Program-made: the position numbers and the translations under genes | In this document: in pieces, positions 11,407-44,961 of the stretch | How positions within the stretch are numbered: position 1 is the stretch's first letter | Layout: each line of letters begins with the position of its first letter | Notes under the pieces: model-generated | Told to the model about the DNA's origin: nothing | What the model saw: the letters and a program-made list of their open reading frames with translations, nothing else | Databases searched by the model: none | Source: Rhabdothermincola salaria | Lineage (GTDB): Bacteria; Actinomycetota; Acidimicrobiia; Acidimicrobiales; Acidimicrobilacustridaceae | Assembly: GCF_021246445.1 (NCBI RefSeq) | Contig: NZ_JAJQXW010000004.1 | Coordinates: 62,001-126,000, forward strand | Length of the DNA stretch: 64,000 bases | Direction: 5' to 3'

Positions 11407-12531
11407 TCACTGCGAAGGGCTGCGAGTACGAGGGGACGGGCCGGGGGTGAAGGTGACTTCCTGGGCTGTCAGGTCGACGTGGTGGGCGTGCCACCCGGCA
11501 TCGAGGATTGCTCGTGCGACTGCACTCCCCTGGTAGCCGTACCAATGAGCGAGGTGGACTCGACACGAGTTCGGGAGCGCGACGCCCGTTGCTCGCTCGA
11601 CCTCCGCGAACGTCGTTCGGAACTCGACGGGCTCGTGTGCGACCAGCCATTCCCAGACCGGCCTGTAGCGACCTTTGTGGTCAGCCCTTCCAACAGCGGA
11701 GTCGTCGGTGAGAGCGGGACCGCCGCTACTCGCTCCGGTCGACCCCCTCGGGCCAGGCGCGTCAGCGTAGAGAAACAGGTCGCTCAGCGGATTGTGCCAA
11801 TTCTCGTTCAGCAGCGCGCGCCAGCTCGTTCGAGCGTGGGCCTCGATGTGGGCCGCAGCACCTTCGGTCGCCACGACCGCGTCGAACGCGTCATCCAATG
11901 GAACACGCACTATCCGAGAGTCTGCGACCGCAGAGAAGCCCGAGTGGACCGAAACGGCGTCGGGCAGGTGTGCGAGTTCCTCCGGCGTGGCGAGGACGGC
12001 CACCTCGGCGTCGCCATCGGCCTTCACGTCGAGCAGGGCGCGTATGCCGACGTTGAGCCGGAGAAGGGTGTCGGCGTCGGGGGCCAGCGTGACCCCCCAT
12101 ATCTCGCCGAGGTCATCGAACGACAGGTTTGCGGCATCGGCCACCGCGAGGCACGCATCGATTGCGGCGTCAGCGAGTTCGGAGTCGCAGAACAGCTCGT
12201 ACTTCTCCCGCTGGGCCTCGGTCGCGCCCGCAGCGTAGATCGCCTCTATTGCTGCGGTGCCCGGATCCTCGGTGAGCACTACCTCGTTGGCCTCGCACCA
12301 CGCCTCCACGGCAAGGCAAAAGCCGGCGAGGAGATCGTCGATCCACCTCCCCTCTTCGTCGGGTGACTCGTCGCCCGGGTCGACCGCTTCCTGGACGATC
12401 AGTGCAGGCCCGGCGCTCGCCGGTTTCGGCGCGCATCTCAGGTAGAACTCGAGGATCTGCTCGTTGTCGGGACGAGTCGGGTCGCGAATGTCCCACACGA
12501 CTTCGAGTTCGTCGCTGACCTCCTCGTTCAT
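11407..12531 (-). CDS. uncharacterised third component of the McrBC operon, DUF7662-like C-terminus
   Basis: The 374-residue protein starts at ATG 12531, which overlaps the McrC stop (ATGA, 12528-12531) and follows GGAGG, so it is translated with McrC. The N-terminal 270 residues are acidic and unrecognised (DEEGRWIDDLLAGFCLAVEA, LSFDDLGEIWGV). After a Gly/Ser-rich linker the last 100 residues (KGRYRPVWEWLVAH, VERATGVALPNSCRVHLAHW, AILDAGWHAHHVDL) resemble the DUF7662 type of small domain, with its conserved WEWL, LP-S-R and AGW positions. Operon position suggests a role beside the McrBC nuclease, such as target recognition, regulation or immunity. This is inference. Confidence 0.65.
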   Translation of the reverse strand: MNEEVSDELEVVWDIRDPTRPDNEQILEFYLRCAPKPASAGPALIVQEAVDPGDESPDEEGRWIDDLLAGFCLAVEAWCEANEVVLTEDPGTAAIEAIYAAGATEAQREKYELFCDSELADAAIDACLAVADAANLSFDDLGEIWGVTLAPDADTLLRLNVGIRALLDVKADGDAEVAVLATPEELAHLPDAVSVHSGFSAVADSRIVRVPLDDAFDAVVATEGAAAHIEAHARTSWRALLNENWHNPLSDLFLYADAPGPRGSTGASSGGPALTDDSAVGRADHKGRYRPVWEWLVAHEPVEFRTTFAEVERATGVALPNSCRVHLAHWYGYQGSAVARAILDAGWHAHHVDLTAQEVTFTPGPSPRTRSPSQ

Positions 12532-13754
12532 GCTGCCTCCTGTGCTGAGTGCCCGCATCGGTGCGCGATCCAGTCCGCCAATGTGACGACCTCTGCCTCG
12601 AGCTCTCGATGTGAGCCGGCCAGCGGAACGCGGTAGGTGTGAAGCAATGTCCCAGCGGTCGTGGTTCTCACCGTGTGCACACGAGGCGCATCGGCGGGGC
12701 TGTCCGGGTCCTCGGCATAGATGAGGATTCCTTCGTCGAGGCCCGTCACCGTGGAGTAGGTGAGCAGCTGCTGGTAGTCGCCCATCCGAGCGGCTCCGGT
12801 CGAGAGCTTGTACTTCACGTCGCCTACGTAGACGCGAACGCTGTGTCGCTCGAAGGTGAGGTCGGGAAGCAGTGTCAGCTTGCGGGAAGGACCAGCGATG
12901 GTCTGACCCAGCGGAACTGACGGCTCGGGGCGCACGGTCAGCCGGCCGCGCAGCGCCGTCGTGAGCCGTTGAGTGACGAACGCTTGGAACAGGGCGGGCA
13001 TGTCGACGAGGAATGTGGCGCCCCGGGAAGAACCGTGGCGATCAGCTAGCGAGAGGTTCTTCATGATGAGCTGAGCCAGCTGCACTGAGAACCGGTAGTG
13101 GCGATCGAGCCGCCCGGGTCGCCACCTGTCCATCGCCGTTGCTTCGACCGGGACACGCGTTACCTCGTCGAACCGGTTCATCAACCGCAGTAGGTCGGCC
13201 CGTAGTGGGGCCGGGAGGCCAGGCACACGACGGACCCGTTCGAGCGCCGCCACCAGGAACTGGTTCAGGGGCACGTCGGAGGTGAACTCGTCGAATCGAC
13301 ACGCCATGGGCGACGGCATGGCCGGCCGCCGGAGCTGCGCGGCGATGTCGATCCGGCCTCTTGGTGCAAGGAGACGGTCTTCGGTGTGGCGGTAGCTCCG
13401 ATAGACGCCCCGGGCGGTGGCATCCTCCACCGCCCGGGCGAACACGGCAGCCATGGCGCCGAGCACGCCCAGGTCCTTGCCGAAGTCGAAATCGAACTGG
13501 CCGAAGTCAGGCAGCTTCACCCCCAGCAGGTAGAAGAGATTGCGGAACGGGACTTTGGGCCGAATGAGCACCGCCTGATCGCCCGCGACCACCGTGCCCA
13601 CCTGGGAGTCCGCCTTGAGGTCATACGCCCCGGGCTCACCACCGATGCTGACCGACAGCGCCTGCCCGCCGGCTCGACGCAGATCGACTGCTTGCTCCTG
13701 GGTCAGGGCAACCTGCTTGCTCTCGTACTCCAGGAGTTCGATCAGCTGGGTCAC
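12528..13754 (-). CDS. mcrC: McrC-type nuclease subunit of a McrBC restriction system
   Basis: The 408-residue protein has the McrC layout: a strand-rich N-terminal part (LIRPKVPFRNLFYLLG), a central helical part (EDRLLAPRGRIDIAAQLRRP, FDEFTSDVPLNQFLVAAL), and a PD-(D/E)xK nuclease core with LLPDLTF, then VGDVKYKL, then DYQQLLTY. Asp, Asp and Lys of the active site are all present. McrC is the endonuclease that assembles with the McrB GTPase hexamer and cuts modified DNA. Its GTG start overlaps the McrB stop (GTGA). The downstream gene overlaps it in turn, so all three are co-translated. Confidence 0.9.
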   Translation of the reverse strand: MTQLIELLEYESKQVALTQEQAVDLRRAGGQALSVSIGGEPGAYDLKADSQVGTVVAGDQAVLIRPKVPFRNLFYLLGVKLPDFGQFDFDFGKDLGVLGAMAAVFARAVEDATARGVYRSYRHTEDRLLAPRGRIDIAAQLRRPAMPSPMACRFDEFTSDVPLNQFLVAALERVRRVPGLPAPLRADLLRLMNRFDEVTRVPVEATAMDRWRPGRLDRHYRFSVQLAQLIMKNLSLADRHGSSRGATFLVDMPALFQAFVTQRLTTALRGRLTVRPEPSVPLGQTIAGPSRKLTLLPDLTFERHSVRVYVGDVKYKLSTGAARMGDYQQLLTYSTVTGLDEGILIYAEDPDSPADAPRVHTVRTTTAGTLLHTYRVPLAGSHRELEAEVVTLADWIAHRCGHSAQEAA

Positions 13755-16573
13755 CCCAGGTCCTCGGCCGGAAGCGCTGGCGAGCCAGCAGTGACTGCCC
13801 CGCCCTCAGGCTCGACGACCCCAGCGACGGCGGCCTGTGCTCGATACCGGGACAGCACCGACGGCCAACGAAAGTCTCTGATCTGCGTGTCATCGCCGTA
13901 GAAGAGGTCCTCGATCCACGGGTCGATGTTGTACTTCCAGATCTTGGCCATCTGCGCTTCGTCGAGGCCGGCTCGCATGAAGTGGCTGTGGCCGATGAGC
14001 TGGTCGCCGTTTCCGAGTTCCGTCCTGAGCTCGTCGTTCACCATCGCCACGACGTCAGCCCACGTCGTGTCCCCCTCGACCGCCTCGAGGTAGCGCTCCA
14101 GGACGCCCTCCATCGGTCCATCGTCGGGGAAGATCGGAACGAAGTGGAAGCGTCGCCGCAGCGCCGCGTCGAGGCTGGCGATCGAGCGGTCCGCGGTGTT
14201 CATGGTGGCGATGATCCAGAGATTGCCCGGGAGAGCGAATCCTTCGGGCCGATAGAGCGGGACCACCGTCTCGTCTCGGTACTCGAGGAGGAACAGCAGC
14301 TCGCCGAACACCTTGGGCACGTTCGCCCGGTTGAGTTCGTCGATCACCAGAAGATGCCGTTTCGAGTCCTGCGCTGCATGCTCAGCGATGCCCGCCAACG
14401 GGCCGGCCTGGAGCTGGTAGCTGAGGTTCCCACTTGCGTCGGCGACCGGGCGATAGCCCTCGAAGAAGTCCTCGTAGGACGTCGAGGGGTGGAACTGCAC
14501 GAAGCTCCGCCGCTTGTCATCGGGCGCCAAAGCCTCCGCCAGCTTGCGGGCAAGGTAGGTCTTCCCCGTTCCGGGCGGGCCATAGAGGACGATCTGACGC
14601 TTGTCGTCGAGGAGCTCCACCAGCTCCTCCAGCCACGACGTGTTCGGCAGGTGGCACTCCTTGGCCACTCGCTCGAGCGGGTCTTCAACCGTGGCTCCCT
14701 CGGCGAGCCGGTCCCGCAGCCAGAACGCGAACACCATCTGACCCCACGGGTCATCTGGCAGGAACGGATCGAAGAGTGCCCGCAAGGCGTCGTTGGCCTG
14801 GACCTGTCGCGTACCCCGAGAGAGCCTGGGATCTGGCACGTCGCGGCCCAGCGCGTTGAGTATCGCCGCCTTTCCGTTGTCCCCCCGCAGTGGGTACACG
14901 GGGATGAATCGCTCGGGGTGGGTGAGAGCGAGCATCTTCATGATCACGCCCTCGCCGAGGCCCTTGAGCCCGAGGTCGTCCGGGTCGAGGAGACGGTCGA
15001 TTCGATCCTCGACCGGGGCATCGCCCCACAGCAGGACGTCGAGGGCCTTCATCATGCGGTCGACCATGGCCGGGCTGGCGTTCATGAGGGTCGTGTTGAG
15101 GATGGATTGGAACCCTGGAAAGCCGTAGTGACTCGAGTTGTAGATGCGGCGGAAGTCGTCGAGCTCGAGGTCGAGCAGTGCACTCGGCTCGAGAAGAGCG
15201 GCCATCGAGTCGCGGTGGAGCTTCTGGTCTTGGTCCTTCGGCGTCGGGTAGCTCGTCTCGACCAGGAACTCCTGGAACAGTGCCGCCAACTTCTCGTCGG
15301 GCGGGTTCGTCGGCTTATCCGGCCCGGAGCGCTCACCCGCCGCGAGGTCCATGAGTCGGCCGAGGGCCGGCTGCAGCTGGGCGGCCACCCTCACCACCTC
15401 GTCGGCGAACGCAGGGTCGCCCAGTACAGACGAGCCCTGGAAGCCCTTCCCGAGCATGAACTCGCCATCTTCGGTTGGTTCCTGGATCCCACCGCCGCCC
15501 CACATCCCGGTCATGTTGATGGGAGCAAGATCGGGGAGATCGAGGTCGGCGAAGGCTTCGCGCACCTTCGGGAACCAGCCCGCACCCTTCCTTCCGGGGT
15601 AGAGGCCGACCAGCGCTCCGTCAACTGTGACGAAGACCCGGATTCCGGGGGCCCAGGTGAAACCCTCGACCTGCTTCGGCCGCCAATCGACCCAGGCATT
15701 TGCTCGATAGCGGACGGGCGTCCACTTCTCACTGCACACGGCCCGACGCAGCGGCCGCCCTGCCGCGTCGCTGACCGCCGACTCGAGGACGTCGCCGAGG
15801 ATGCGGACGTCAGCGACCACGGCCGCCGCGTTCGCTCGAGCCAGTTCCTCGAGGCCGTCGGGATACTCGGTTTCGGCATCCTGGTTGAGTTCCATCCCCC
15901 ATCGGAAGCGGTCTTGGAGCGTCAGGTCCAAGCCGACCCAGGGATTGGCGTTGAACCAGTAGAGGGCGCTCTCGACGGTCCAGCTGTCACCCAATGCCAA
16001 GGAGAGCTCCCGAAACGACTGATACAGCTCGGTGAGCTGAAGGCCCATGTCCAGCCAGCCGAGCCGGGTGAAGGACTTCTCCGCACTCGCCCAGAGGCAG
16101 GGCCAGGTGTCGGCGTCCTGCAGGAACCAGAAGAAGGAGGCGAAGAACAGCGCCCGCTTGGGGCCCGGGTGTGCGCCCTTCTTGATCGACTCGACGTAGC
16201 GGATGAAGCGGTCGAGCTTGGCGATGGCGTCCGCCTCGCTCGAGGGCACCGCCAGCACGTGGATGAGCAGCTCGGTGAGCGCGTCCTCGTCCTGGCTCTG
16301 CTTCACCAGCTGGTTGACGAACATTCCGCCGGTGACACCAGCGAGCCCCTCATAGCCCGGCTTCTTGGTCCAGTCTGCGAACGAGCTCTGGAACTCCGTG
16401 ATCGATCGGTCGGCTCGCAGAGCGTCGACGATCTGGAGCAGCTCCTCGGCGCGCTCGCGCCGATGTTCGGCGCTGATCTCGCGCTCCGCCATGTATGCCG
16501 CATCGGCATGCATGGCCTCGACGATCTGGACGAACCGGGTCCTCCGGAAGCCGAGTTCCTCTTCGTCGATCAT
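13751..16573 (-). CDS. mcrB: McrB-type AAA+ GTPase subunit with long N-terminal region
   Basis: The protein has 940 residues from ATG 16573, which follows a strong GGGGAGGAG. The C-terminal third is the motor: Walker A VLYGPPGTGKTYLARKL near residue 664, Walker B LLVIDELNRAN near 745, and the McrB signature MNTADRSI, followed by LDAALRRRFHF. The N-terminal 600 residues are far longer than in classical McrB. They include PGIRVFVTVDGALVGLYPG and ERFIPVYPLRGDNGKAA, so a different DNA- or modification-sensing module is likely. The motor should drive translocation and activate McrC. The gene lies 59 bases after the UvrD-type gene and is probably on the same transcript as the helicase/methyltransferase genes. 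Confidence 0.9.
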   Translation of the reverse strand: MIDEEELGFRRTRFVQIVEAMHADAAYMAEREISAEHRRERAEELLQIVDALRADRSITEFQSSFADWTKKPGYEGLAGVTGGMFVNQLVKQSQDEDALTELLIHVLAVPSSEADAIAKLDRFIRYVESIKKGAHPGPKRALFFASFFWFLQDADTWPCLWASAEKSFTRLGWLDMGLQLTELYQSFRELSLALGDSWTVESALYWFNANPWVGLDLTLQDRFRWGMELNQDAETEYPDGLEELARANAAAVVADVRILGDVLESAVSDAAGRPLRRAVCSEKWTPVRYRANAWVDWRPKQVEGFTWAPGIRVFVTVDGALVGLYPGRKGAGWFPKVREAFADLDLPDLAPINMTGMWGGGGIQEPTEDGEFMLGKGFQGSSVLGDPAFADEVVRVAAQLQPALGRLMDLAAGERSGPDKPTNPPDEKLAALFQEFLVETSYPTPKDQDQKLHRDSMAALLEPSALLDLELDDFRRIYNSSHYGFPGFQSILNTTLMNASPAMVDRMMKALDVLLWGDAPVEDRIDRLLDPDDLGLKGLGEGVIMKMLALTHPERFIPVYPLRGDNGKAAILNALGRDVPDPRLSRGTRQVQANDALRALFDPFLPDDPWGQMVFAFWLRDRLAEGATVEDPLERVAKECHLPNTSWLEELVELLDDKRQIVLYGPPGTGKTYLARKLAEALAPDDKRRSFVQFHPSTSYEDFFEGYRPVADASGNLSYQLQAGPLAGIAEHAAQDSKRHLLVIDELNRANVPKVFGELLFLLEYRDETVVPLYRPEGFALPGNLWIIATMNTADRSIASLDAALRRRFHFVPIFPDDGPMEGVLERYLEAVEGDTTWADVVAMVNDELRTELGNGDQLIGHSHFMRAGLDEAQMAKIWKYNIDPWIEDLFYGDDTQIRDFRWPSVLSRYRAQAAVAGVVEPEGGAVTAGSPALPAEDLG

Positions 16574-16632
16574 GTTCGTCTCCTCCCCTTGTCGCTCACG
16601 TCGTCGCAGCATCGACTGACCGTTGGCATGGT

Positions 16633-18783
16633 TCAGATCCCCAAGACGGGGGTGAGAAAGCGACTCGGAGAGCCGGACCACGCCACCCAGAGGTCGTCGC
16701 GAGCTCTCGTCGAAGCGACGTAGAGAAGCGAACGCTCTCGGCGAATCTCGGCCTCATGCTGCACTGGGTCCTCGGACTCGGGCGTGAGGAACTTCGGGTT
16801 CGGGAGCTCGTCGGAGGACGCGTCGATCACCGCAACGCAGCGGTACTCGAGGCCCTTCATCCGGTGCATCGTGCCGATGGCCACACCATCGGACGCGCTG
16901 AGGTCGGGGCCCAACTCGAACGCCAGCACCCCCACGTCCCGGAGGGCTCGCTCAACAGCAGGGAACGTCCCCTTGGTCCGAGCCGCGATCCCGATCGCAG
17001 ACTCGTCGACACCCTCGGCGATCCATTGCTTCACACGCTCGGCGAGGCCTTCGATCATCTCGCCTCTAGTGGCGAAACCCACGCACGTCGGGACCGCGCC
17101 GTCGAGGAAGCTGTGGTAGCCGGCGACGTCCTGGTTGTCCGTCCCTTCGTCGAGGTCGTCGTACTCGCCTTCGCCGAGCACGGCGAGCGACCACCGCAGG
17201 ATCTGGCGGGTGGTCCGGTAGTTGATCTTGAGCTTCTTGGAGCGGCCGCGAATGTTGATGCCGACCTTGCTGAGCGAGCTGCGCCGGCCGTAGATGCGCT
17301 GGTGGGAGTCACCCACGATGAACAGGTCGTTCTCGCCTTCCCCCACCACCGCACGCAACAGCCGCCACTGCGCCTCGTGAAGGTCCTGGGCTTCGTCGAC
17401 GATCACGTGCTGGTACGGCTTGATCTGCTCCTGCTCCATGTAGCCCGCCGCCTTGGCCGCCACCTGGAGGTGGGTGCGGACGTTGCGTGACTCCATCTCC
17501 CGGGTTGCCGCCTCGATCACCTTCCACACCTGGGCCCGCTGCTTGCGGTCCAGCCGGGTGCCTCGGCCGGCTCTGCTCGCCCGGAAGTACTCGTCGCGCG
17601 AGTCGAGGCCCTGGGCCAGGACGACCTGCTCCCATTCCTGGAGCACGAACGTCGGGGTGAGGTCATAGCCGAGCTCGAGGATCTTCTCGTCCCAGAGCTC
17701 GAGGAGCCGACTGTCCTGGATGATCTGAGGCGCTGACCCCTCGATGTCCTTCACCATTTGGTTGGCCAACCGGTCGACGTTGACGACGTCGGTGACGTCG
17801 AGCAGGTCGGAGCCGCCGAGGAGGCGGAGGTCACGCTCGATCGCCTGGGCGAGGTTCCGGGTGAAGGTGGTGAACAAGATCGGCCTCGAAGTGGAGCCCT
17901 CGAGGTTCTCGGCCAGGGCCTTGGCCCGGTGCATCGCCACGACCGTCTTGCCCGTGCCGGCGCCGCCCGTGACGCGGGCCGGGCCGTTGTAGGTGGGCCG
18001 GTAGGCGATCTCGTGCTGGGACTGGTGCAGATAGGTGCGCCATTGGGCCAACGGACGGGCCAGCATCTCGGCGAGGTCGTCCTCGTCGGTGACGACGTGG
18101 AAGTGCGCCCGCGAGGCCGGCGCGACGATGGCGGCAGCGAGGTCGTCGGTGTCGATCTCCTCAGGGTCGATGTTTCCCGCCACCTGGGCGTAGATGACGT
18201 CCACCGACTCGTCGCCCGTCAGGAGGATCAACGCCTCAGCCTGCCCCTGAGGCAACACGAGCATCAGGGCTTCGAGCTGCGACTCGTCATCCATCACCCG
18301 CAATAGAGGCAGCATCGATTCGTCGATACCGAGCTGAGTGAAGTCCTTGTCTTTGCGATGGTCGTACAACAGGGCCGCCGGCTCGGGAGTGGCAGCCACT
18401 CTCTGTCCGACAGCTTCGATCTGCGAAGCGATCGCGCCGGCGTCGAACACCTCCAACGCCCCGGTAGCGGCGTTCACCTTGAACTCGTTGTTGAGCATCC
18501 AGCGGTCAGCGTCGTCGTGGGTCATCACGTCGACGAGCACCACCCGGTCGGACCCGTCGGGTACGAGGACGATTCCGCGGTGGTTGTCACCGAGCCGGAT
18601 CGTCCTCGCCCGCTTGTCCTTCTGGTGCTTGTAGGTCTCGAGGTGGATGCCCTTGGCCTGGTTGAGCTCGGCCATCGACAGGAGCCGGCACTTCCCGGCC
18701 AGGTCGTGCACCCGGTTCTGGATGACGCGGTCCAGCTTCGAATAGTCGGAGAGGAACTCGCGTGCCACGGCCAGCGTCGCCAT
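16633..18783 (-). CDS. UvrD/Rep-type helicase with RelE/ParE-like N-terminal domain
   Basis: The protein has 716 residues from ATG 18783, which shares its A with the stop of the previous gene (TGATG). Residues 1-100 (REFLSDYSKLDRVIQNRVHD, RARTIRLGDNHRGIVLV, VLVDVMTHDDADRWML) look like a RelE/ParE fold used as a fused domain. The rest is a superfamily 1A helicase: Walker A GGAGTGKTVVAMHRA near 275, DEAQDLHEAQW near 461, INYRTTRQI, and the C-terminal GTMHRMKGLEYR and VASTRARDDLW. It should translocate on and unwind DNA. The fused domain probably serves binding or control rather than mRNA cleavage, which is inference. An upstream open frame exists but is antisense-like sequence, so I reject it. 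Confidence 0.85.
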   Translation of the reverse strand: MATLAVAREFLSDYSKLDRVIQNRVHDLAGKCRLLSMAELNQAKGIHLETYKHQKDKRARTIRLGDNHRGIVLVPDGSDRVVLVDVMTHDDADRWMLNNEFKVNAATGALEVFDAGAIASQIEAVGQRVAATPEPAALLYDHRKDKDFTQLGIDESMLPLLRVMDDESQLEALMLVLPQGQAEALILLTGDESVDVIYAQVAGNIDPEEIDTDDLAAAIVAPASRAHFHVVTDEDDLAEMLARPLAQWRTYLHQSQHEIAYRPTYNGPARVTGGAGTGKTVVAMHRAKALAENLEGSTSRPILFTTFTRNLAQAIERDLRLLGGSDLLDVTDVVNVDRLANQMVKDIEGSAPQIIQDSRLLELWDEKILELGYDLTPTFVLQEWEQVVLAQGLDSRDEYFRASRAGRGTRLDRKQRAQVWKVIEAATREMESRNVRTHLQVAAKAAGYMEQEQIKPYQHVIVDEAQDLHEAQWRLLRAVVGEGENDLFIVGDSHQRIYGRRSSLSKVGINIRGRSKKLKINYRTTRQILRWSLAVLGEGEYDDLDEGTDNQDVAGYHSFLDGAVPTCVGFATRGEMIEGLAERVKQWIAEGVDESAIGIAARTKGTFPAVERALRDVGVLAFELGPDLSASDGVAIGTMHRMKGLEYRCVAVIDASSDELPNPKFLTPESEDPVQHEAEIRRERSLLYVASTRARDDLWVAWSGSPSRFLTPVLGI

Positions 18784-25115: not shown

Positions 25116-28100
25116 CCGTACTCCCCCGCGTCGAGGCGACGCTGGAACTCGACGTAGGCACGGGTCATCTCCGCCTCACGATCGGGCCGGGTGAAAGGCG
25201 GCGTGTACTGGCCCTCCCAGTCCACCGAGTCCGGGTCCTCCTCCCACTGCTCGAACATCTTCCACACGCTCTTCCACTCCGGCCCCCGCCTCTTGTCCTT
25301 CGCCTCCTGCTGGAGCTGAGCTTGGCGATAGCCGGCCGACTGGTGGTGAGCGCAGATCTTGCGCCCCTCAGAGTCGAACGCCATGGCGTACTCGTACTTG
25401 CGCAAAACCGCGAACTGCGTCCGGTACATCGCACAAAGCTGCTCAGCTGTGAGGCCAAGCATGAGCGCTGCGAGAGCATCGATCTCGACGAGTGCGAGCC
25501 GGCGCTCGAAGTCGCCGCGTAACGGCGTGTCCATTGTCCAAGCGGTCTGCCCTACACCAAGCAGGACCCGACGTAGGAGCGGGTCCGTCCAGCGGTCGTT
25601 GAGCCAGGTCGGAGAGTGAAGGTCTTCCCAAAGGGGAGCATAGGTAGAGGTCAGGCAGTTCAGTCGAGCAGTTCGAATGAGGATCGGCTCGGCGAATGGC
25701 GTGTAGAGAGGAAACACAGAGCGGGTGACGGTTGTGTCCTGGATATTGGACTTTCCTACTTGCTTAACCAGATAGTCGTATGGAATGGACGACCAGAGTC
25801 CCGCTAGGAGCACCGTCCTAGATGCATCCTGCATCGCGATTGTGTGACATGCATTGACGTGAGTCGGTCCTGGCATGATCAAGGCCGGATGCAACGACCG
25901 CTCCAGCCCAGGCTGAGTCATTGAGCGGTAAATCATTCGGACGTACGACGAAGAAGGACGTCCATCCCAGTGCGTGTAGCGACTCAAGAAGGTATCCCGG
26001 TCGGTTCGACGTTGGTAGTTCGTCCGTGGGACCACGTCGGCCAACAAGCCAACGAGATCCCACTCCTCGTAGTCTTGGTTGTGTCGACATCCTTCGTTGG
26101 GTTGTTTCGCAAAGGGCGTCGCAACAGTGAAATGAGGTCCCTGGAGAATTACATCATCCCATGTACCCGGCACTTCCGTATCCCACAAGATAGAACCGTC
26201 TTCCTTTGCCCCTTTCTCATGCCAGCCGGCACTCCAAAAGTACCCGTGATCGTTGAGCCTTACAGGTTGACTCGCGAGGGCTGATAGAGCTCCAAGGTCT
26301 TGGCTGCTGACGGGGCGCATCAGTCGGGCTTGGCTCGGGGCCGTGCCAGGCTCGTCGAAGAGCTGAGCCCAATCCGACAGAACCTCGATGTCAATCCGTA
26401 CAATTCGACTTCGATGAACTCGAAGATCCCACCCGCCGGCGGGCAGTTGCACCCCAGGGGCGGGGCCCGATCCGTCGTGGTCGAAGGAACCGTCGACCTG
26501 GATGGGGTGGACGAGGCCCGCAATCTGTTGGAATGACACTTCGCCAGCCGGCCCATATATGGCGACGGCATACTCTACCCAGAAGTCAACTTCCTCAAAA
26601 AGTAGAAGTGCGTTAAGGAACAAAAAGTGCCGACAAAACCGTCTGTAAGCGAGCTCGCGGAGTTGCCCGGCCTTCGGATCGACCAGATGGCGAATTGGCT
26701 GGGCCAGACCTATGGCCCCCAGAGCACCCGCATGACGCCAGACGGTGTCCATGAAGACCATGTAGAGGTTGGTTTGGACACCAGCGAGGACTGGGCGGAG
26801 CTGAATCGACCCTATCGACTGGACGAGCCCTTCATGTGACGCAACCTCCGCCAGATAGGTCGACTTGCGTTCGAGGGTCTCTAGACCCGCCCGCCGCCGT
26901 GCTTTGCGCTCTCGCTCGGGCGCCTTTTCCACTATCCCCCACCATGGTTCCCACTCAGCGAGAACGGTGTCATCTAGCCATCTCGGTCGCACCCATGGTG
27001 GGTTTCCCACTTGAAGGCTGAATCCGCCTGCGCGGAACAGGGGCGCGTACTCAAGCTCCCAGTGCCACGCTCCTTCCTTGCGGGCGAGGTCGGTCGACCG
27101 ACGGAGCCAGGAAAGTTCATCCAAGGCCGCCAAGAGGGATTCGCGACCCGCTGCTCGCAACTTCTCAGCCGCCTGAATCGCCTCCAGGTCGGCAAACAGA
27201 TCGAGCTGCCCGGTCGGTTCCGTCGGCTTGGGACCGATGATCCGTTCCAGGGTCGTCAGCCACTCGTTCCACGTCGGAAGCTTCACCTCGCCGTCGAGCG
27301 TCCAGAACCACAGGCCGACCCATGCGTCCATCACCAGCCGAAGCCGCCCCAGAGCGGACTCGGGGTTGTTCAGGATCTTTTCGGCGGCTCGGCGATCGTC
27401 TGCCGGCGCTCCACCATCGCCGTCGGTGCCGTAGAGGCCGAGCGGCCGGCGCATGCGTTGGTTGAGGCGGTCGAGGAGGTCGGTCGCCTCCTCCCACAGG
27501 CGCTCTACTCCGGCGGCGAGGGCGGTGAGGCGATCGGCGTCCTTGGCGCTCGGCGCCTTGAGGATCGTCTTGCGCCACTCCGCCAGCGCCTTGGCCTGGT
27601 CGGGGGCGAGCTCCTTGGCTTCTTTGCGGCCGGCGACGGCACCCCAGCCGTGGCCCGGAAGGAGGAAGTGATGGATCTCATCGGGCTCGAGCGTCTCGGA
27701 GAGCGGCCGATCGGTGGGCGGCACGGCCTCGGCGGCCTTGTCCTTGGCCCAGAGTTTGTCCTTCAGACGACCGGCGTTCCACGTGGCCCGTCGGCAGCCG
27801 ACGAGGCTGTTGCCGCGGCGGAGGCGGAGACCGAACCAAGGGGCCTTGAGGCCGGGATACATGCAGTTGAGCCAGAGGCTGACCTCGGCCAGCTCCACGG
27901 CGGTGGTGTTGAGGTCGACCCCGTAGCTCTGGTGGAGGGCGAAGTGGGCCTTCACCTTCTGAAGCTCGCGCTGGTAGCGCTCGGCGTCGAGGGTCTCGCC
28001 GAGCTCGGCCTGGCGGCGTTTGAGGTACTCGGCCGAGAGCTGGTTGATGGCCTCGTTGAGGAACGCTCCCGAGCCGAGCGCCGGCTCGCAGATGGTGAGG

Positions 28101-29896
28101 TCGAGGATCTGGCGGGCCTCAGTGACGCCGGCCGACCCGCCGGGGACGCGGGCGTGGTCGTCGGTGCCGAGCAGCTCGGCCAGGGCGTGGCGCACCACGC
28201 ACGAGGTGAGAACCTCGGGCGTGTAGTAGCTGGCCGAGCGTTGCCGGTCGCGGCCGGCCAGGCGGTAGACATAGCTGCCGCCGGGGTGACGCACCCGTTC
28301 GGTGCGTCCGCTCAGTGGGTCGGTCTCGCGGACGAACACCTCGTCGGGGAAATCGTCGGCGTCGCTGACCGGCACCATCCAGGTTCCGCCGGAAGGGTCG
28401 CCGCCCTTGGCCACCTCGTAAAGGTCCTGGTCGCGCTGGGCGAAGAAGCCCGTGTAGGCCATGAGCCCCTCGTACACCGCGCCGAGCTGGTTGATACCGA
28501 GCTGGGCGTAGGAGATGAAGCCGCGTTGGTCGGTCTTCTTCTTGCCCTCCCGGTTGAGCATGAGCAGAGCCAGGACCCGCTGGAGGGCCTCGTTGCGCAG
28601 CGGCACCGAGTCGAGCAGCGGCGTGGAGCCGGGGTCGAAGATGGTGGCGTCGAGGCCGGGGAACTGCAAGTAGTCCTCGGCCGAGCGGGTGGCGCCCGGG
28701 GCTTCGGGCTCGAACACCAGCATCTGCTCAGCGACCTCGGCGTGGTAGCCGTCGTTCACCAGTCCGAACAGCACCCGCAGCGATTCGTCGAGGTGGGTGC
28801 CGGTGCGGGCGTGTTCGTCGTCAAGCTCCACCAAGACCAGCTCGCGCAGCCGGTCGAGGCTGTAGCCGGCCAGGTAGGCGTCGTCGTTGGTGGGCAGCAC
28901 ACCCAGCTCGGGCCGCGATTCGGCGTAGAGCAGCACGATCAGGCGGTAGAGGTAGCGCAGACACTGGCGGGTGAGGGCGGAGGGATCGACCTTGTTCTCG
29001 CCCGAGTAAACGGCGAGATTCTTGGCCAGCCGCTGGGCGATGACCTCGTTGGCCAGCACCTCGACCGAGCGGCGCATGCCCTCGCGCAGTTCCTTGGACA
29101 CGCCGACGGCGTGGCGGTTCTGCTTGTCGTCGACCTCGTCGAAGAATGACGTGGAGCCATCCTCCTCGCCGGCGAGATGATCGGGCACGAGAGCATCTGC
29201 GGAGAAGAGGGCGGCGATGGTCTCGAGCTCGCCCTTGGCCTTGGTATCGGATCGCTCCAATGCGGCGTCGAACTGGACTGCGAGGAAGCGACCTTCGGCC
29301 CACTTCGACCGCTCGGCCAGCAGCAGCGACGAACCGCCGCACAGGAGCACGAACCGAGGCGGGTCGTCGACCGAGAACAACTCGCCGGGCACGTCGGCCA
29401 CCGACGTGACCTTCACCTTGTCGCCGTCACGGCGCAGCGGCTCGAGGAGACAGCCAGGGGGCCGCCCCTCCTCGCGGGCGTCCGTGTCGAACAGCTCGTC
29501 GACTTCCGATGCGGCACCGGCGTCGACGGCCACCAACAGCGGCCCGGTGGCGGTGTCGACGCGGGCGGCGATAGGCACGACGAGTTCGTCAGTGCCAGTG
29601 TTGCGTTCAAAGGTGGCGTCGGCGCGCTCAGGGGAGAACCCGAGAGCGGTGAGCACGACATCGTTGAGCGTGCGCACGGCATTGGGGTACGCAGCCGTGC
29701 TGGCCTCGGTCACCGCCGCTCGGGCGTCGAAGAACGCCCGGTGTAACGACCGCAAGCCGGTCCGAGCGGTGGGGCGGCCGCGCCCCTCTGCTACGTCCCA
29801 CCCCTTCCTTAGGTCCTCGAGGTCGCTGGCCAAGCGCGCATCGAGGTAGTGGTCGGAGAAGAATTCGGCCCGGTTGACGATGCTGTCGAAACTCAT
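25112..29896 (-). CDS. large Eco57I/PglX-like N6-adenine DNA methyltransferase (DrmMI-type)
   Basis: The protein has 1594 residues. The SAM-binding motif I-like TICEPALGSGAFLNEA is near residue 604 and the catalytic NPPW (LQVGNPPWVRPRW) near 965, with a long helical insert between them. The N-terminal 600 residues are helical and acidic, as in type IIL/PglX-like enzymes. It should methylate adenine at a specific site, marking self DNA for the coupled helicase/nuclease genes. After NPPW, from about 25.65 to 26.7 kb, base composition becomes clearly more AT-rich than the neighbours. This is the expected position of the target-recognition domain and suggests exchange of specificity. It starts inside the DrmD stop and ends inside the YprA start (ATGA at both ends). 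Confidence 0.85.
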   Translation of the reverse strand: MSFDSIVNRAEFFSDHYLDARLASDLEDLRKGWDVAEGRGRPTARTGLRSLHRAFFDARAAVTEASTAAYPNAVRTLNDVVLTALGFSPERADATFERNTGTDELVVPIAARVDTATGPLLVAVDAGAASEVDELFDTDAREEGRPPGCLLEPLRRDGDKVKVTSVADVPGELFSVDDPPRFVLLCGGSSLLLAERSKWAEGRFLAVQFDAALERSDTKAKGELETIAALFSADALVPDHLAGEEDGSTSFFDEVDDKQNRHAVGVSKELREGMRRSVEVLANEVIAQRLAKNLAVYSGENKVDPSALTRQCLRYLYRLIVLLYAESRPELGVLPTNDDAYLAGYSLDRLRELVLVELDDEHARTGTHLDESLRVLFGLVNDGYHAEVAEQMLVFEPEAPGATRSAEDYLQFPGLDATIFDPGSTPLLDSVPLRNEALQRVLALLMLNREGKKKTDQRGFISYAQLGINQLGAVYEGLMAYTGFFAQRDQDLYEVAKGGDPSGGTWMVPVSDADDFPDEVFVRETDPLSGRTERVRHPGGSYVYRLAGRDRQRSASYYTPEVLTSCVVRHALAELLGTDDHARVPGGSAGVTEARQILDLTICEPALGSGAFLNEAINQLSAEYLKRRQAELGETLDAERYQRELQKVKAHFALHQSYGVDLNTTAVELAEVSLWLNCMYPGLKAPWFGLRLRRGNSLVGCRRATWNAGRLKDKLWAKDKAAEAVPPTDRPLSETLEPDEIHHFLLPGHGWGAVAGRKEAKELAPDQAKALAEWRKTILKAPSAKDADRLTALAAGVERLWEEATDLLDRLNQRMRRPLGLYGTDGDGGAPADDRRAAEKILNNPESALGRLRLVMDAWVGLWFWTLDGEVKLPTWNEWLTTLERIIGPKPTEPTGQLDLFADLEAIQAAEKLRAAGRESLLAALDELSWLRRSTDLARKEGAWHWELEYAPLFRAGGFSLQVGNPPWVRPRWLDDTVLAEWEPWWGIVEKAPERERKARRRAGLETLERKSTYLAEVASHEGLVQSIGSIQLRPVLAGVQTNLYMVFMDTVWRHAGALGAIGLAQPIRHLVDPKAGQLRELAYRRFCRHFLFLNALLLFEEVDFWVEYAVAIYGPAGEVSFQQIAGLVHPIQVDGSFDHDGSGPAPGVQLPAGGWDLRVHRSRIVRIDIEVLSDWAQLFDEPGTAPSQARLMRPVSSQDLGALSALASQPVRLNDHGYFWSAGWHEKGAKEDGSILWDTEVPGTWDDVILQGPHFTVATPFAKQPNEGCRHNQDYEEWDLVGLLADVVPRTNYQRRTDRDTFLSRYTHWDGRPSSSYVRMIYRSMTQPGLERSLHPALIMPGPTHVNACHTIAMQDASRTVLLAGLWSSIPYDYLVKQVGKSNIQDTTVTRSVFPLYTPFAEPILIRTARLNCLTSTYAPLWEDLHSPTWLNDRWTDPLLRRVLLGVGQTAWTMDTPLRGDFERRLALVEIDALAALMLGLTAEQLCAMYRTQFAVLRKYEYAMAFDSEGRKICAHHQSAGYRQAQLQQEAKDKRRGPEWKSVWKMFEQWEEDPDSVDWEGQYTPPFTRPDREAEMTRAYVEFQRRLDAGEYG

Positions 29897-32739
29897 ACCC
29901 GTACGTCCTTCGGCACCAACACTGCGAGGACCCGCACCAACGGTGAGCCGGTGGTGCGCAGTGACTCGATGAGCCGGGCGGTCGAGGCCTCGACGTCGTC
30001 GATCTGGCGCTGCTTCTCGGTTCGGCGGCGCTCGATCTCGAGCTCGAGGGCGAGCTGGTGGGAGCGACCCACCCAGGCCTCGAGTCGATCGCGAGGGCCG
30101 GTGAGCAGCTCGTCCACCCGATCGTCGTGCTCAGACCGGCGGCGATCCAGCTCGGCGCGGGCGGCCTCGACCACACCGGGGAGGGCATGCTGAAGGAGCA
30201 GCGGGTCGGAGGCCAGGCCAGGGTTGGCCATACGGGGGCCGACGCCGGCCGCATCGAGCACGTCAAACAGGTCGTCGATTCGATGGTCGCCACCGGTGCC
30301 GAGGCCGATCGCCAGCCAGTCCACGAGCTGGGGTCGCCCCCGGCCGTTCGACCACACGCCCTGGACGCAGAACGTCGGGGTGCCGACGTCGGCGGCGATG
30401 ATCGGCGCCTGATTGCGACCGATGCCGACCAGCACCTTGTCGACGAGCCAGTCGACTAGCGGGTGCAGCGGCGAGAGGAACCCGACCTCGGGCCACTGCG
30501 AGTCCTCGGACTGCCGGGCGCGGTCGAGCTGGGTGTTGGCGGTGTGGTGGTCGGCGGTGACCTTCAGGCGGTCGACGACCTTCTGCTCGGAGAGGTAGGT
30601 CTGAGGCAACGCCGAGAGGCGGCGGACGAGGTCCTTCGGTGGGGTGAGGGAGAGGAACGAGGGGTCGGTGCTATCGCCCCGCAGCTCGAGGGTGCCGGGG
30701 TCGGCGAAGGCCGATGCCATGGCCTCGGTGACGAACTCGTGGTCGGAGGCGAAGAGCGACGGTGGGTTGCGTTCCGCCACTGGATCAAGGCCGGTGCCGC
30801 CACTCATAAGGGTGAGCAGGTCGAACGGCTTCTCTGGCTTGATGGGGATCACGTCGTCTGCGTCGACGCCATCCTTGAGCGCCTGCATGATCGCCTCTTC
30901 CTCGGCATCGGGGGCGTGAAGGCCGAGCAGCGACCCGGACTCGCCGAAGGCCCGGTGGGCCTCGTCCTCGCGATGGAGAAGGCGAGAGAGGACCCGGACG
31001 TCGCCGACGAGGCGGGGGTGGTCGGGGGTGACCACGAGGGCTCGAATGTCGGGCGGATGCTCCTGGCCATAGCGGTCGATGCGGCCGTTGCGCTGCTCGA
31101 TGGTGATGAGCGACCACGGCAGGTCGAAGTGGATGAGGTGGTGGCACTGGCGGTGGAGGTTCACGCCCTCCGAAGCCATATCGCCGGTGAGCAGCATGCG
31201 GACCTTGGAGTCGCCGAGTCCGAACTCCTCGATGACGTCCATCTGCTTCACGTCGGCGAGCCCGCCGTGCAGGACTCGGACGTGCTTGTCCGCGTCGAGG
31301 CCGAGCAGCTCCGGGAGCATGGCGTGGAGCCAGTCGAGGGTGGCGATGCGTTCGGAGAAGATGACCACGCGGATGTCTGAGCGGGGACCGATGTCGATCG
31401 CCTTCAGTTGCTCGACGAGCGACTGAAGCTTTGCCGCCCCGGTGTCGTCGACCGCTTCGGCCAGCTCGCCCAGGCGGGTCAGGGCGTCGTCCTCGGCCTT
31501 CCTCGCCGGGTCCTTCAGCTCCCCGTTGCTGTTGTGCAGGTTGCGGCGCCGGTTGCGGATGGTCTCGGCCAGTGCCTTGTGCGACGACAGGGCGGCCTTG
31601 AAGAGCGTCCAGGGAAAGAGGCTCGAGCCCTTGCCCGTGACCGGCGCCGGGCCGTCGGGATGGATCCAGGTGTCGGACAGCTCGGCGAACATGGCTGACT
31701 CGGCCCGGTCGGGCGTAACCGGGATGGGGCGGGGCGGGAGGCGGTCGGCCCACTGGTGGCCGACCTCGGCCGAAACCTCCTCGTGAGCCTTGTGGCGGCG
31801 GATGTAGAGGTGCTCGATGTCACCGGGCTGGATGTTCTTGGGATCCACGATCGCGGTGGGGTCGAGAAGACGGATGAGCTCGGCGAAGCTCTCGGGGTCG
31901 CCGTTGTGGGGTGTGGCCGACGTGAGGATGAGCGCCTCGGTGCGAGGAGCGAGCACCCGGGCGAGCTGGTTGTTGAGGGTGCCCCGGTTCACGAGGTTGT
32001 GGCACTCGTCGATCACGACGGCGTCCCAGTGGATGCCCTCGAGGTGGTGGCGGTAGCGGCCGGCGTTCTTGAGAGTGTCGATCGAGATGATCGCCCGGCG
32101 GTAGTGAGCGAATGGGTTCCGGTTGGCGGGGATCTTGCGTCGCACCCGCTGGATGCCCTCGGAGTCGAGGCGCACGAGCGGGATGGCGAAGCGGGTCCAC
32201 AGCTCGTGCTGGAACTGCTCGAGAATGTGGCGCGGCGTGACCACCAGGATGCGCTCGCCCCTCCCCCGCCGGATGAGCTCGGACAACAGCAGCCCGACCT
32301 CGAGCGTCTTGCCCAGACCAACGGCGTCGGCGATGAGCACCCTGGGTTGCAGGTTGTCGAGCGCCTTGTGGACCGCTCGCCGTTGGTACTCGAGGCGGTC
32401 AAGGAGCTGGCGGCTGGCGACGGCCAGTTCGGTGTCGCTCGACGGCACCGGGGTCTTGCGCAGGATGGCCTCGAGATAGAGACGACTGCGCCGGAAGTTG
32501 GGGGAATCGTCGTCGACCAGACGCGTCTCTTCAGGGCGCAGCGGCTCAACGCTGTCGAGCTTGGTGAAGAACGTCGCCTCGGCGTCGCGCACGAACGACG
32601 ACGTCCCGATGCACCGGACCATGAGCCCATCCGACGGGGTGTGTTGCACGGCGCGGACCAGCCACTCCTCATCACGTACCAGCACCTGAGCGCCACTGGC
32701 GATGTGCGGCAAGAGGTCGTCAGCGGTCCGGGTGGGCAT
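29893..32739 (-). CDS. DrmD-like SNF2-family helicase
   Basis: The 948-residue superfamily 2 SNF2-type ATPase has Walker A in LIADAVGLGKTLEVGLLL near residue 145, VVTPRHILEQF, VVIDECHNLVNRGT near 243, LTSATPHNGD, and the C-terminal EGVNLHRQCHHLIHFDLP followed by IEQRNGRIDRYGQ. The N-terminal region (GAQVLVRDEEWLVRAV) and overall size match DrmD of class 1 DISARM. It should use ATP to move on double-stranded DNA. It is the first large gene of the seven-gene run and overlaps the methyltransferase start by four bases. AGGTGG precedes ATG 32739. A divergent promoter region of about 400 bases separates it from the Hhe-type gene. Confidence 0.85.
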   Translation of the reverse strand: MPTRTADDLLPHIASGAQVLVRDEEWLVRAVQHTPSDGLMVRCIGTSSFVRDAEATFFTKLDSVEPLRPEETRLVDDDSPNFRRSRLYLEAILRKTPVPSSDTELAVASRQLLDRLEYQRRAVHKALDNLQPRVLIADAVGLGKTLEVGLLLSELIRRGRGERILVVTPRHILEQFQHELWTRFAIPLVRLDSEGIQRVRRKIPANRNPFAHYRRAIISIDTLKNAGRYRHHLEGIHWDAVVIDECHNLVNRGTLNNQLARVLAPRTEALILTSATPHNGDPESFAELIRLLDPTAIVDPKNIQPGDIEHLYIRRHKAHEEVSAEVGHQWADRLPPRPIPVTPDRAESAMFAELSDTWIHPDGPAPVTGKGSSLFPWTLFKAALSSHKALAETIRNRRRNLHNSNGELKDPARKAEDDALTRLGELAEAVDDTGAAKLQSLVEQLKAIDIGPRSDIRVVIFSERIATLDWLHAMLPELLGLDADKHVRVLHGGLADVKQMDVIEEFGLGDSKVRMLLTGDMASEGVNLHRQCHHLIHFDLPWSLITIEQRNGRIDRYGQEHPPDIRALVVTPDHPRLVGDVRVLSRLLHREDEAHRAFGESGSLLGLHAPDAEEEAIMQALKDGVDADDVIPIKPEKPFDLLTLMSGGTGLDPVAERNPPSLFASDHEFVTEAMASAFADPGTLELRGDSTDPSFLSLTPPKDLVRRLSALPQTYLSEQKVVDRLKVTADHHTANTQLDRARQSEDSQWPEVGFLSPLHPLVDWLVDKVLVGIGRNQAPIIAADVGTPTFCVQGVWSNGRGRPQLVDWLAIGLGTGGDHRIDDLFDVLDAAGVGPRMANPGLASDPLLLQHALPGVVEAARAELDRRRSEHDDRVDELLTGPRDRLEAWVGRSHQLALELEIERRRTEKQRQIDDVEASTARLIESLRTTGSPLVRVLAVLVPKDVRV

Positions 32740-39100: not shown

Positions 39101-39162
39101 GGGGACTCGCCGAGGGCCGCCTGGCCGAGGACGACGGTCGGCTGCGGCCGGGCCCGAGCTGA
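33136..39162 (+). CDS. Hhe-type defence protein: transglutaminase-like, DUF4011, SF1 helicase, Vsr/DUF559-like nuclease, DUF3320
   Basis: The protein has 2008 residues with a GTG start after AGGGGCGGGG. In order: a beta-rich N-terminus; a transglutaminase-like segment near 265-300 (RNGTCIDLACAYAACLEQAG, then VDGHAFAGFF, giving Cys and His); DUF4011 near 415 (SWKSALLDLSMRNPLLNF); SF1 helicase Walker A LEGPPGTGKSQT near 724, VFDEASQIRV near 1353, and LNVAVTRARRQ near 1597; a PD-(D/E)xK-like segment near 1660-1745 (ITEALRERGLRVTADLGLS, KVDLALS); and DUF3320 near 1930-2000. This is the layout of Hhe, a single-gene anti-phage system. It should unwind and cut DNA; the N-terminal domain may act as a peptidase-like or binding module. 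It diverges from the seven-gene run. Confidence 0.85.
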   Translation: MDHSGQFDGQPAESSGTEPAVAPGRSGVNLDAHPGEPELSVSGEATNTPAFSVDVEGPDKIFYALAHNRVPVIRKLGVRNDHADASGTVAIKITSSWSRSAEPPVLPFQVTMQCPGRGDVGILEGLDIRMNDAQMTLIEEACPATLRLEIQPEHGPSQMIERHLEILARDEWAFDPEFPSAIAAFVQPNHPTTNDVLKAASALLQRNTGDGSLQGYQGGPERAVAIGEAIYLAIQDFIDTYINPPASFEENGQKVRALDRVLEERNGTCIDLACAYAACLEQAGLHPLIWLVDGHAFAGFFDTESSLPQASLTDPTTMLNIIEGGGITAVETTCIPNKQPFAEATKAPLGHFTELRLRAMVDVHAAHRAGIRPLPARVRTGDVITVVIDPGPGTAPVIERRDAATNRILPQTVPARIESWKSALLDLSMRNPLLNFRPSRGGLELLPPRGKLPQIEDHLHSGEGFMVHPADQVGELARARGVREATAEADELLQEAWDALGAVLSTTRTKEFATRLRSLISKARLQEQETGANNLYLTLGSLTWEDPRSSAGPVQSPIFLVPVRLDRARGSDIPVVRLDEGGISTPNYCLIEALRARHNLTVPFFSEDMADDSGLDIERGMSSLRKAITDRGLPFLVNDSSALAVLQFSKFRLWKDLDDHWAELMASPVVKHFVENPKTPYVDPANPAKDAVVLDETEVFTPVPADGAQLRAITRAVNGESFVLEGPPGTGKSQTITNLLANALAKGRTVLFVAEKQAALSVVKERLHSVGLDPYCLDLHDKGSDPASIRRQLLHALDHHPGHDAAAWERTERDFAAGASMLRTYRDRLHSPNTNGVSYWAAHVRLGELGPGQQAPVPRRFLEVDAATVTAIREVLASLPAVSGPAQPRPAHPWHLADATSFEQIDRPALTTAINNVRAALDALPTVPLSLPIAGEATTLDELLATQQLLWLHTVGALPPTTMWERVSAAGWRDRANALVEQARAAVASHGEVVGQVGVDLLDVDFGPTLAALEAAKSSFALGRKGRIRGALGDLATRPPFTGMEPPAAAELVARFAAAATALRSWTDAIRSVDGLELPADWRVEAPGALDTAATYIDVLDGAARLLSGTGDCAVAARRFVDAPPMLPPGILTHLGAFDSALRDVQQRLGATEHSIDRWRNGEGLLDAARRSVDDWAADAEENRFIRLQRWLVLSKELEPLTDAGLNEFVEVLLTGSVNGIDAADVFERGFMATTLLDCAERSNLDVFDRYEHDRSIGRFTALLEERQERLRTVIPSLLADGRRFNAQAGVGEVASLRNELQRKSSRGGRSVRQLLSHYPELIQQLSPCFLMSPDSVAKFLTPGKITFDIAVFDEASQIRVAEAVGAMGRARSVVVVGDSRQMPPTTFGAAGSAEPDDLYGTTDIDPLVPEEADSILEEAIDSGLDQEWLSWHYRSQDEALIKFSNDRYYESKLASFPTPAPNRGGRGLDYRRVAGQFDHGGKRNNPVEAKAIVEEIRRRAHDPVESTWSIGVVTLNREQQLEIETQLDALGDPRVNQLRETGEDEERLFVLNLENVQGRERDVILFSTAFSRRADGTAMPLNFGPLNRVGGERRLNVAVTRARRQVVVFSSFDPEDIDENRTTSVGLRHLREYLQLARDFSGQGHAATDVDTEPTDRHRREITEALRERGLRVTADLGLSSFKVDLALSLPEVGDKWLVGVLLDGPDWADRPTVIDRDALPVSVLGGMLGWPRIARVWLPSWRSEPDQVIADLVEATRTAMHTPEPDHAALAPETTNATTTGFSAEEPGVPSEPVVVTAPPPDRTESVQSAAAPVPGAPDDPGAYDDEELFEPWPLEPILGSPEDLDLQTPAVRAAAMDAISFEGPIEVERLLKSVANRFGLARVRASRLAALRSAIPPELIETSSFGEWAWPSADRGRGWKAFRTSDSLIRPIDEIAPAEILNAASAVLAHAFSAEREELVRELAGLFGAKRVTAKIAERVGSIIDWGLAEGRLAEDDGRLRPGPS

Positions 39163-44872: not shown

Positions 44873-44961
44873 CTCGAAGCACCACCGCCGGCCTCTGGTC
44901 ATCGCCACGGACCGGTGCGAGGCTCGCGACGGTTCGGTCCTCGACACCTCGGAGGTGACCC

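Follow-up and report, generated by a model that had tools for sequence, protein, structure and literature searches.

ARMADA Type II has been studied in E. coli NCTC 12900 and ATCC 8739, and protection in E. coli depends on all four Arm genes (Bell et al. 2025 preprint, PMC12458937). An association of McrB branches with a 'DISARM-like' system had been reported by Bell et al. (2024, eLife, PMC11090510), whose Figure 2 legend lists YprA, DUF1998, SWI2/SNF2 and PglX, and this observation pointed to uncharted YprA diversity (PMC12458937). In another described pairing, BREX and the type IV enzyme BrxU of pEFER were found by experiment to give complementary protection (Picton et al. 2021, PMC8565348). 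Here we describe a 64-kb stretch of the Rhabdothermincola salaria genome (contig NZ_JAJQXW010000004.1, positions 62,001 to 126,000; hereafter the window), in which a putative seven-gene operon on the minus strand carries a predicted ARMADA Type II system, a McrBC pair and a further gene, gene 7. Apart from gene 7, the parts of this locus are known, and the presence of ARMADA II with McrBC in one operon suggests a pairing directed against ordinary and modified phage DNA.

The 'DISARM-like' YprA/SNF2/PglX cassette with McrBC resembles the window in having an NxxD McrB beside SNF2, PglX and YprA; the two were compared by text and legend rather than by gene order, and the window differs in that its core is ARMADA II and its McrBC lies downstream on the same strand (PMC11090510). 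The initial annotation of the window had held such a link with McrBC to be outside textbook knowledge, a view that has to be narrowed because McrB branches with a 'DISARM-like' YprA cassette were already published (PMC11090510). No description of ARMADA and McrBC in one operon was found in the open-licence literature, figures and supplements aside. BREX with BrxU shares with the window the combination of a methylation-based system and a modification-dependent nuclease, but the protein families differ on both sides, and the pEFER pairing is known from experiment whereas the present one is known from genes alone (PMC8565348).

Organization of the seven genes

Seven open reading frames (ORFs), all on the minus strand, follow one another head to tail from 32739 down to 11407, as initially annotated. 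The junctions given there also matched the sequence when it was read base by base: ATGA overlaps join genes 1 and 2, genes 2 and 3, and genes 6 and 7 (McrC/gene 7), a TGATG overlap joins genes 3 and 4 (ArmC/ArmD), a GTGA overlap joins genes 5 and 6 (McrB/McrC), and a 59-base gap separates genes 4 and 5 (ArmD/McrB). This gap ends with the purine-rich ribosome-binding site GGGGAGGAG, 6 bases 5' of the McrB ATG, and a scan by consensus only found neither promoter-like nor terminator-like sites within it. Refined starts were placed at ATG 18783 for gene 4 (the mechanical ORF extends to 19323), at ATG 16573 for McrB (mechanical ORF from 16681, GTG) and at ATG 12531 for gene 7 (mechanical ORF from 12558). 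Family matches agreed with the gene labels that had been proposed (SNF2/DrmD, methyltransferase, YprA/DUF1998, UvrD, McrB and McrC), and among named organisms the closest proteins come from Actinomycetota. G+C ranges from 63 to 75% over the 64-kb stretch. Seven long overlapping or nearly overlapping genes with matched families would be unlikely to arise by chance, and a single transcript is likely to cover all seven.

The ARMADA core

The first four genes were compared with the ARMADA locus of E. coli ATCC 8739 (record NZ_CP033020.1; the preprint cites another assembly). Their features are as follows:

29893..32739, minus strand: ArmA (gene 1), a BrxHII/DrmD-like SNF2 (RapA-type) helicase of 948 residues, with GLGKT at 141 and DECH at 244
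25112..29896, minus strand: ArmB (gene 2), a PglX-like amino-methyltransferase of 1594 residues, with NPPW at 965 and an S-adenosylmethionine-binding-like GSG stretch at 603
18783..25115, minus strand: ArmC (gene 3), a YprA/DruE-like helicase of 2110 residues, with GTGSGKT at 103, DEFH at 232 and MZB/DUF1998 at 1533-1620
19686..20048, minus strand: nuclease-like stretch of ArmC, at about residues 1690-1810, with DG...H...D...R columns
16633..18783, minus strand: ArmD (gene 4), a UvrD/GajB-like helicase of ~716-717 residues, with an N-terminal stretch that aligns to the RelE-like end of ArmD proteins

Against its E. coli counterpart, ArmA showed 34.8% identity (residues 12-942 of 948), ArmB 34.9% (residues 1-1514 of 1594), ArmC 30.4% (residues 1-1858 of 2110, 753 bits) and ArmD 35.2% (residues 5-712); the two loci therefore share four genes, their order, their motifs and similar sizes, with 30-35% identity across 88-99% of each window protein. 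The gene order of ARMADA II is strictly kept, with a BrxHII/RapA-like helicase first, a PglX-like methyltransferase with NPPW second, a single YprA protein with DUF1998 third and, fourth, a GajB-like UvrD helicase with an N-terminal stretch that is RelE-like by alignment. What sets the window apart from the reference locus is the addition of mcrB, mcrC and gene 7 after armD, on the same strand. Walker A motifs (ArmA, ArmC and ArmD), DExx boxes and NPPW (ArmB) are all present in the window proteins, and we take them to correspond to the ARMADA motifs of these names that have been mutated. Mutation of the E. coli counterparts abolished or weakened defence (PMC12458937). The DG...H...D...R columns of the ArmC nuclease-like stretch were identical in 15 of 15 aligned ArmC rows, two of them near-identical E. 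coli rows, and 'Vsr-type' is the name used for the predicted nuclease at the ArmC C-terminus (PMC12458937).

PADLOC names genes 1-4 DrmD, type IIG methyltransferase, DruE and GajB, with no ARMADA label among the matches listed, and these names would fit a DISARM or Druantia core instead of ARMADA. We consider that identity extremely improbable, because the gene order and the near full-length alignments equal those of ARMADA II. DISARM splits off DUF1998, whereas here DUF1998 (MZB) sits inside one YprA protein of 2110 residues and not in a separate DrmB; in addition, the Pfam matches for the seven proteins included no phospholipase D nuclease (DrmC). As for Druantia, DruE of E. coli Druantia III, which is encoded beside the E. 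coli ARMADA, scored only 118 bits in its best segment against 753 bits for E. coli ArmC, in a YprA comparison whose single Druantia reference was this one and which included no reference from ARMADA Type I, BRIGADE or TALON. DruH was not among the PADLOC matches listed for the seven proteins (best 25 for ArmA, ArmC and ArmD). In the ArmC tree the Druantia branch was very long, and the branch of the MrfA outgroup, a wrong or partial ORF of 612 residues from this genome, was disregarded.

The expectation that the YprA protein would lie nearer to Druantia and ARMADA than to DISARM was thus upheld, both by the fused DUF1998 and by the 753 bits to E. coli ArmC. The 'ARMADA-like' core of the initial annotation was correctly placed on the ARMADA/Druantia side, away from DISARM, but its extent had to be revised from three genes to four, with the UvrD gene as ArmD; therefore, genes 1-4 can be assigned to a complete ARMADA Type II system.

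The McrBC pair

Genes 5 and 6 comprise the following features, with McrB residue numbers counted from the GTG at 16681:

13751..16573, minus strand: McrB (gene 5), an AAA+ GTPase with a long modular N-terminus, with GPPGTGKT at 701, Walker B at 778 and MNTADRS (NxxD) at 827
12528..13754, minus strand: McrC (gene 6), the PD-(D/E)xK nuclease partner (PF10117, 141 bits), with PDLTFE..VGDVK at 297
15338..15946, minus strand: predicted reader module of McrB, with a DUF1054-like fold in the model and a weaker likeness to the McrB N-terminal DNA-binding domain

The Walker B stretch of McrB reads LVIDELNR, and its GTPase part matches the PDB McrB entries 6hz4, 7vsr and 6ut6. The NxxD form of the downstream motif denotes canonical McrB and the NxD form denotes CoCoNuT (PMC11090510); the window protein has NTAD, which is the NxxD form, and a CoCoNuT identity was rejected on this motif. 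Genes 5 and 6 can accordingly be classed, from these motifs, as a canonical McrBC pair.

The part of McrB that precedes the GTPase had no PDB sequence match, and the N-terminus had no match in the plasmid search. An AlphaFold2 model of the N-terminus (654 residues, eight sequences) reached a mean predicted local distance difference test (pLDDT) score of 80, and Foldseek returned nothing for it below E 0.001. In VIA-align, the model of residues 210-412 gave Z scores of 14.3 with 2a8e and 11.9 with the DUF1054 structure 3mqz, and of 5.3-6.2 with entries of the McrB N-terminal DNA-binding domain. The helical parts flanking these residues resemble helix-hairpin-helix base-excision glycosylases (Z ~7), which may be helical-fold background. 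On this model, it is plausible that the McrB N-terminus is a reader of modified bases.

McrBC near ARMADA II in other genomes

The linkage of McrBC to ARMADA II was counted in 50 genomes, consisting of 13 with strong ArmC matches (from 396 genomes of the phylum and 397 of the order) and 37 from a set of 80 ArmD loci. These 80 were the best of 319 relatives, with flanks of up to 10 kb, and the 37 entered the count by an ArmC directly upstream, their class being set without a per-genome check of ArmA or ArmB. Left out were 15 of 22 phylum genomes with weaker YprA matches (best 6e-46) and the remaining 43 ArmD loci, among which L114 and L127 have weak YprA matches on the same strand and four others (L059, L063, L074 and L108) have them on the other strand. 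In two of the 50 genomes (G448 and G738), ArmC is present only as a contig-end fragment.

McrC was found in 12 of the 50 genomes (and in 20 of 148 genomes of the order); four of these 12, this genome included, have it no more than 10 kb from the ARMADA ends, in three arrangements. In this genome McrC is on the ARMADA strand, 3.0 kb downstream; it is 5.7 kb upstream and divergent in G374, ~2 kb upstream and divergent in Mobilicoccus massiliensis (G783), and 2.0 kb downstream and convergent, beyond two genes after ArmD, in G443. Type I HsdS served as a control for the defence-island effect: 35 of these 50 genomes carry it, none of them within 10 kb of ARMADA, and one copy lies at ~15 kb (G800). 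The difference in linkage between McrC and HsdS gave a Fisher p of 0.0028, or 0.011 leaving out this genome, which was chosen for carrying the pairing, so that p values are also given without it. For Mrr, which is likewise a family of modification-dependent nucleases, linkage within 10 kb was seen in 2 of 25 genomes (G791, and G783 with two copies). A co-occurrence test gave p 0.014 (0.05 without this genome) but has an approximate denominator and is weak, and a uniform-placement figure (2e-5 without this genome) was not used because its null is too generous. All linkage counts are lower bounds because the assemblies are fragmented.

The survey of the best 80 of 319 ArmD loci, made by tblastn with the window proteins, contained no ARMADA locus with McrBC; it missed the Mobilicoccus McrBC, which lies further upstream and was found by other searches. 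On plasmids, only NZ_CP081497.1 was common to the ArmD and McrC matches listed (best 30 of 50 and best 60 of 135, respectively), and no ArmC match was present in the 38 kb of it that was examined. The full gene order, for which conservation had been the proposed check, recurred in no relative among the loci examined, and a conserved seven-gene system was rejected. Because McrBC and ARMADA are mostly apart in relatives (8/12), we regard their association as a recurrent pairing and not as one conserved seven-gene system. The initial annotation had named independent occurrence with no more linkage than chance as the outcome that would speak against it: the two parts do mostly occur apart, yet their linkage exceeds that of the HsdS control (0/35).

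Further genes were seen at some of these loci. A TIR-domain gene lies between McrBC and ARMADA in G374, on the ARMADA strand (L158, 8419-9696). The two genes 3' of ArmD in G443 are on the ARMADA strand (L152, 13805-15625), and one of them weakly matches EVE, a reader of modified bases, below the Pfam cut-off. The two Mrr-type matches of G783 lie between ArmB and ArmC and after ArmD (contig C21, 666953-667291 and 676772-677128). In G566, partial second ArmB ends flank a full ArmB (L155, 8360-16302; L154, 15207-15778) and a partial ArmD copy follows ArmD; these partial copies are possible remnants of duplication or recombination.

Histories of McrBC and ArmD

ARMADA-linked McrBC pairs did not form one clade in the McrC tree or in the tree of the McrB GTPase part. 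The pairs of this genome and of G374 group with unlinked pairs in these trees, the McrC of G443 joins the unlinked pair of G510 (support 99/98, McrC tree), and the Mobilicoccus McrB sits on a very long branch (McrB tree only), so the linked pairs would derive from at least two, probably three, lineages. The ArmC of G443 is nevertheless the closest found to the window ArmC (57%). Taken together, the scattered linked pairs and this close ArmC lead us to conclude that McrBC was probably set beside related ARMADA cores more than once.

The intermixing of ARMADA-linked and unlinked pairs in both trees would fit the main rival explanation, in which ARMADA II and an independent McrBC came to lie side by side in a defence island, with incidental read-through and no functional link. 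Six loci of the same order (L172-L177) also hold related McrBC pairs, with no clear ArmC in the stretches fetched (39 bits for the best match), the other flank of the operon holds a further defence candidate (PDC-S37-like, 33136-39162), and the linkage of Mrr is not significantly below that of McrC. However, the proximity recurs in three arrangements and with at least two McrBC lineages, whereas HsdS, although commoner (35/50), is never within 10 kb. We consider such an incidental neighbourhood possible but rather unlikely.

The window-lineage ArmD belongs to a group of 31 proteins (support 0.99). In 23 relatives of this group, some of them encoded on short contigs, no ARMADA operon was seen, and three further members are RelE-UvrD proteins linked to McrBC (L053, L065 and L110); ArmD, too, appears to be mobile. 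In these three loci, from Streptomyces/Amycolatopsis, RelE-UvrD comes directly after McrB-McrC and no ArmC was found in the fetched stretch. McrC was found in 6 of 14 genomes, made up of 12 with ArmD relatives lacking an ARMADA operon at the locus plus L065 and L110, and was placed beside ArmD only in the latter two. L053 (Streptomyces sp. BHT-5-2 plasmid p1) has the order SNF2-PglX-Hsp70-McrB-McrC-RelE/UvrD and resembles the window in that McrBC adjoins an ArmD relative (41% identity), with SNF2 (DpdE in PADLOC) and PglX-like genes upstream. It differs in that no ArmC match was found, McrBC precedes the UvrD gene and an Hsp70-like gene is included, which lies at 12007-14739 inside the locus.

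That RelE-UvrD proteins directly follow McrB-McrC in these three loci, and that the window-lineage ArmD groups with them and with the 23 relatives showing no ARMADA gene, could point to a single machine of all seven proteins, its ARMADA core physically tied to McrBC by ArmD or gene 7. We judge this very unlikely, since none of the relatives' loci examined had the seven-gene set, the nearest relatives with the two systems have McrBC divergent or convergent, and 396 genomes of the phylum and 298 of the order gave no match to the body of gene 7.

Gene 7 and the genomic neighbourhood

The last gene of the operon has two features:

11407..12531, minus strand: gene 7, 374 residues, with a body without detected relatives
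11449..11640, minus strand: DUF7662 domain of gene 7, residues 307-370 (PF24698, 26.5 bits, cut-off 26)

DUF7662 is the sole family match in gene 7. For the body of the protein, no relative was found in the 396 genomes of the phylum, the 298 of the order, plasmids, viral contigs or PDB sequences, and the body would thus be new; the DUF7662 end was matched at E <= 0.001 in 10 other genomes of the phylum set and 9 others of the order set, and the plasmid search with gene 7 gave one weak match, to this end. In the AlphaFold2 model, a block with pLDDT 85-98 covers most of DUF7662, whereas the mean pLDDT is 55 and the model is poor outside the domain. Foldseek found nothing for the model under E 0.001, and the winged-helix proteins RepE, CtsR, CodY and CRP were among the rows with Z 3.4-5.4, within background; the DUF7662 end is predicted to be winged-helix-like. 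Elsewhere, DUF7662 is fused to sequences that, judged by eye, are PD-(D/E)xK-like, GIY-YIG-like or PIN-like. No mention of DUF7662 was found in the open-licence literature. This genome has a second DUF7662 stretch (G000:C5:163910-164170), with a match to type I HsdS 1.7 kb away.

Divergent from the operon, on the plus strand (33136-39162), lies a gene for a 2008-residue protein with DUF4011, superfamily 1 (SF1) helicase halves and an MTES_1575 nuclease domain, whose residues 412-2003 match PDC-S37, a candidate system in PADLOC, with 870 bits; it is a further defence candidate beside the operon. A tRNA-Arg gene is located at 44799-44873 on the plus strand, where G+C rises from ~0.69 to ~0.73, and the operon, in the stretch of lower G+C, may belong to an island that ends near it. 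In a Pfam scan, the four ORFs between 40551 and 44614 had no match, and hence no integrase was found among them.

Proposed division of labour

We favour, with a probability of roughly 0.7, the reading that the locus encodes two complementary, probably co-transcribed systems, of which ARMADA would act against non-self DNA and McrBC against modified phage DNA. The reading is supported by the ARMADA II gene order and the near full-length homology to a studied locus, by the motifs that all six enzymes carry, including NxxD in McrB and PD-(D/E)xK in McrC, and by overlaps and a 59-base gap that has a ribosome-binding site and no terminator-like match. It draws further on the McrB N-terminus, predicted to fold like DUF1054 and, more weakly, like a McrB reader, on the linkage of McrC (4/12) against HsdS (0/35), on Mrr adjoining ARMADA II in 2 of 25 genomes, and, by analogy, on the precedent of BREX with BrxU (PMC8565348).

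In the proposed working, ArmB would mark or probe DNA by amino-methylation, and the motors ArmA, ArmC and ArmD, together with the nuclease-like end of ArmC and the RelE-like end of ArmD, would stop phage DNA lacking the self state. McrBC would read modified bases via the N-terminal modules of McrB, translocate with GTP and cut, and would catch phages whose DNA modifications evade ARMADA. Gene 7 may be a DNA-binding accessory acting through its winged-helix-like DUF7662 end, and co-transcription would accompany a division of labour between ARMADA and McrBC. The combination of self-marking with attack on modified phage DNA, put forward in the initial annotation, would still be the best reading of the genes.

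Several observations weigh against two cooperating systems. In the other eight McrC-bearing ARMADA II genomes, McrC is more than 600 kb off (two) or on another contig (six), and McrC is absent from the matches in 38 of the 50 genomes; therefore, McrBC is dispensable to ARMADA II. Three of the four linked cases belong to one taxonomic order. The excess of McrC over Mrr linkage is not significant (p 0.07; 0.15 without this genome), so that, given the 2 of 25 genomes with linked Mrr, McrBC does not stand significantly above Mrr. Finally, NPPW is compatible with N6-adenine or N4-cytosine methylation, and if ArmB made N4-methylcytosine, McrBC could attack the host.

A more far-reaching proposal, which we regard as doubtful, is that ARMADA II and type IV restriction make up an immune unit of two layers, assembled repeatedly and fixed here as an operon, with the ArmD-type RelE-UvrD helicase shared with McrBC and gene 7 as a winged-helix adaptor. 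That an ArmD-type helicase may also work with McrBC is hinted at by the McrB-McrC-ArmD loci without ArmC.

ARMADA is newly described, and its self/non-self rule was not found stated in the literature text covered (PMC12458937 and PMC11090510 among it). With an operon that joins it to a modification-dependent nuclease, one could ask directly whether ARMADA fails to see modified phage DNA. That the pairing recurs in different arrangements hints at selection and not at inheritance of one unit.

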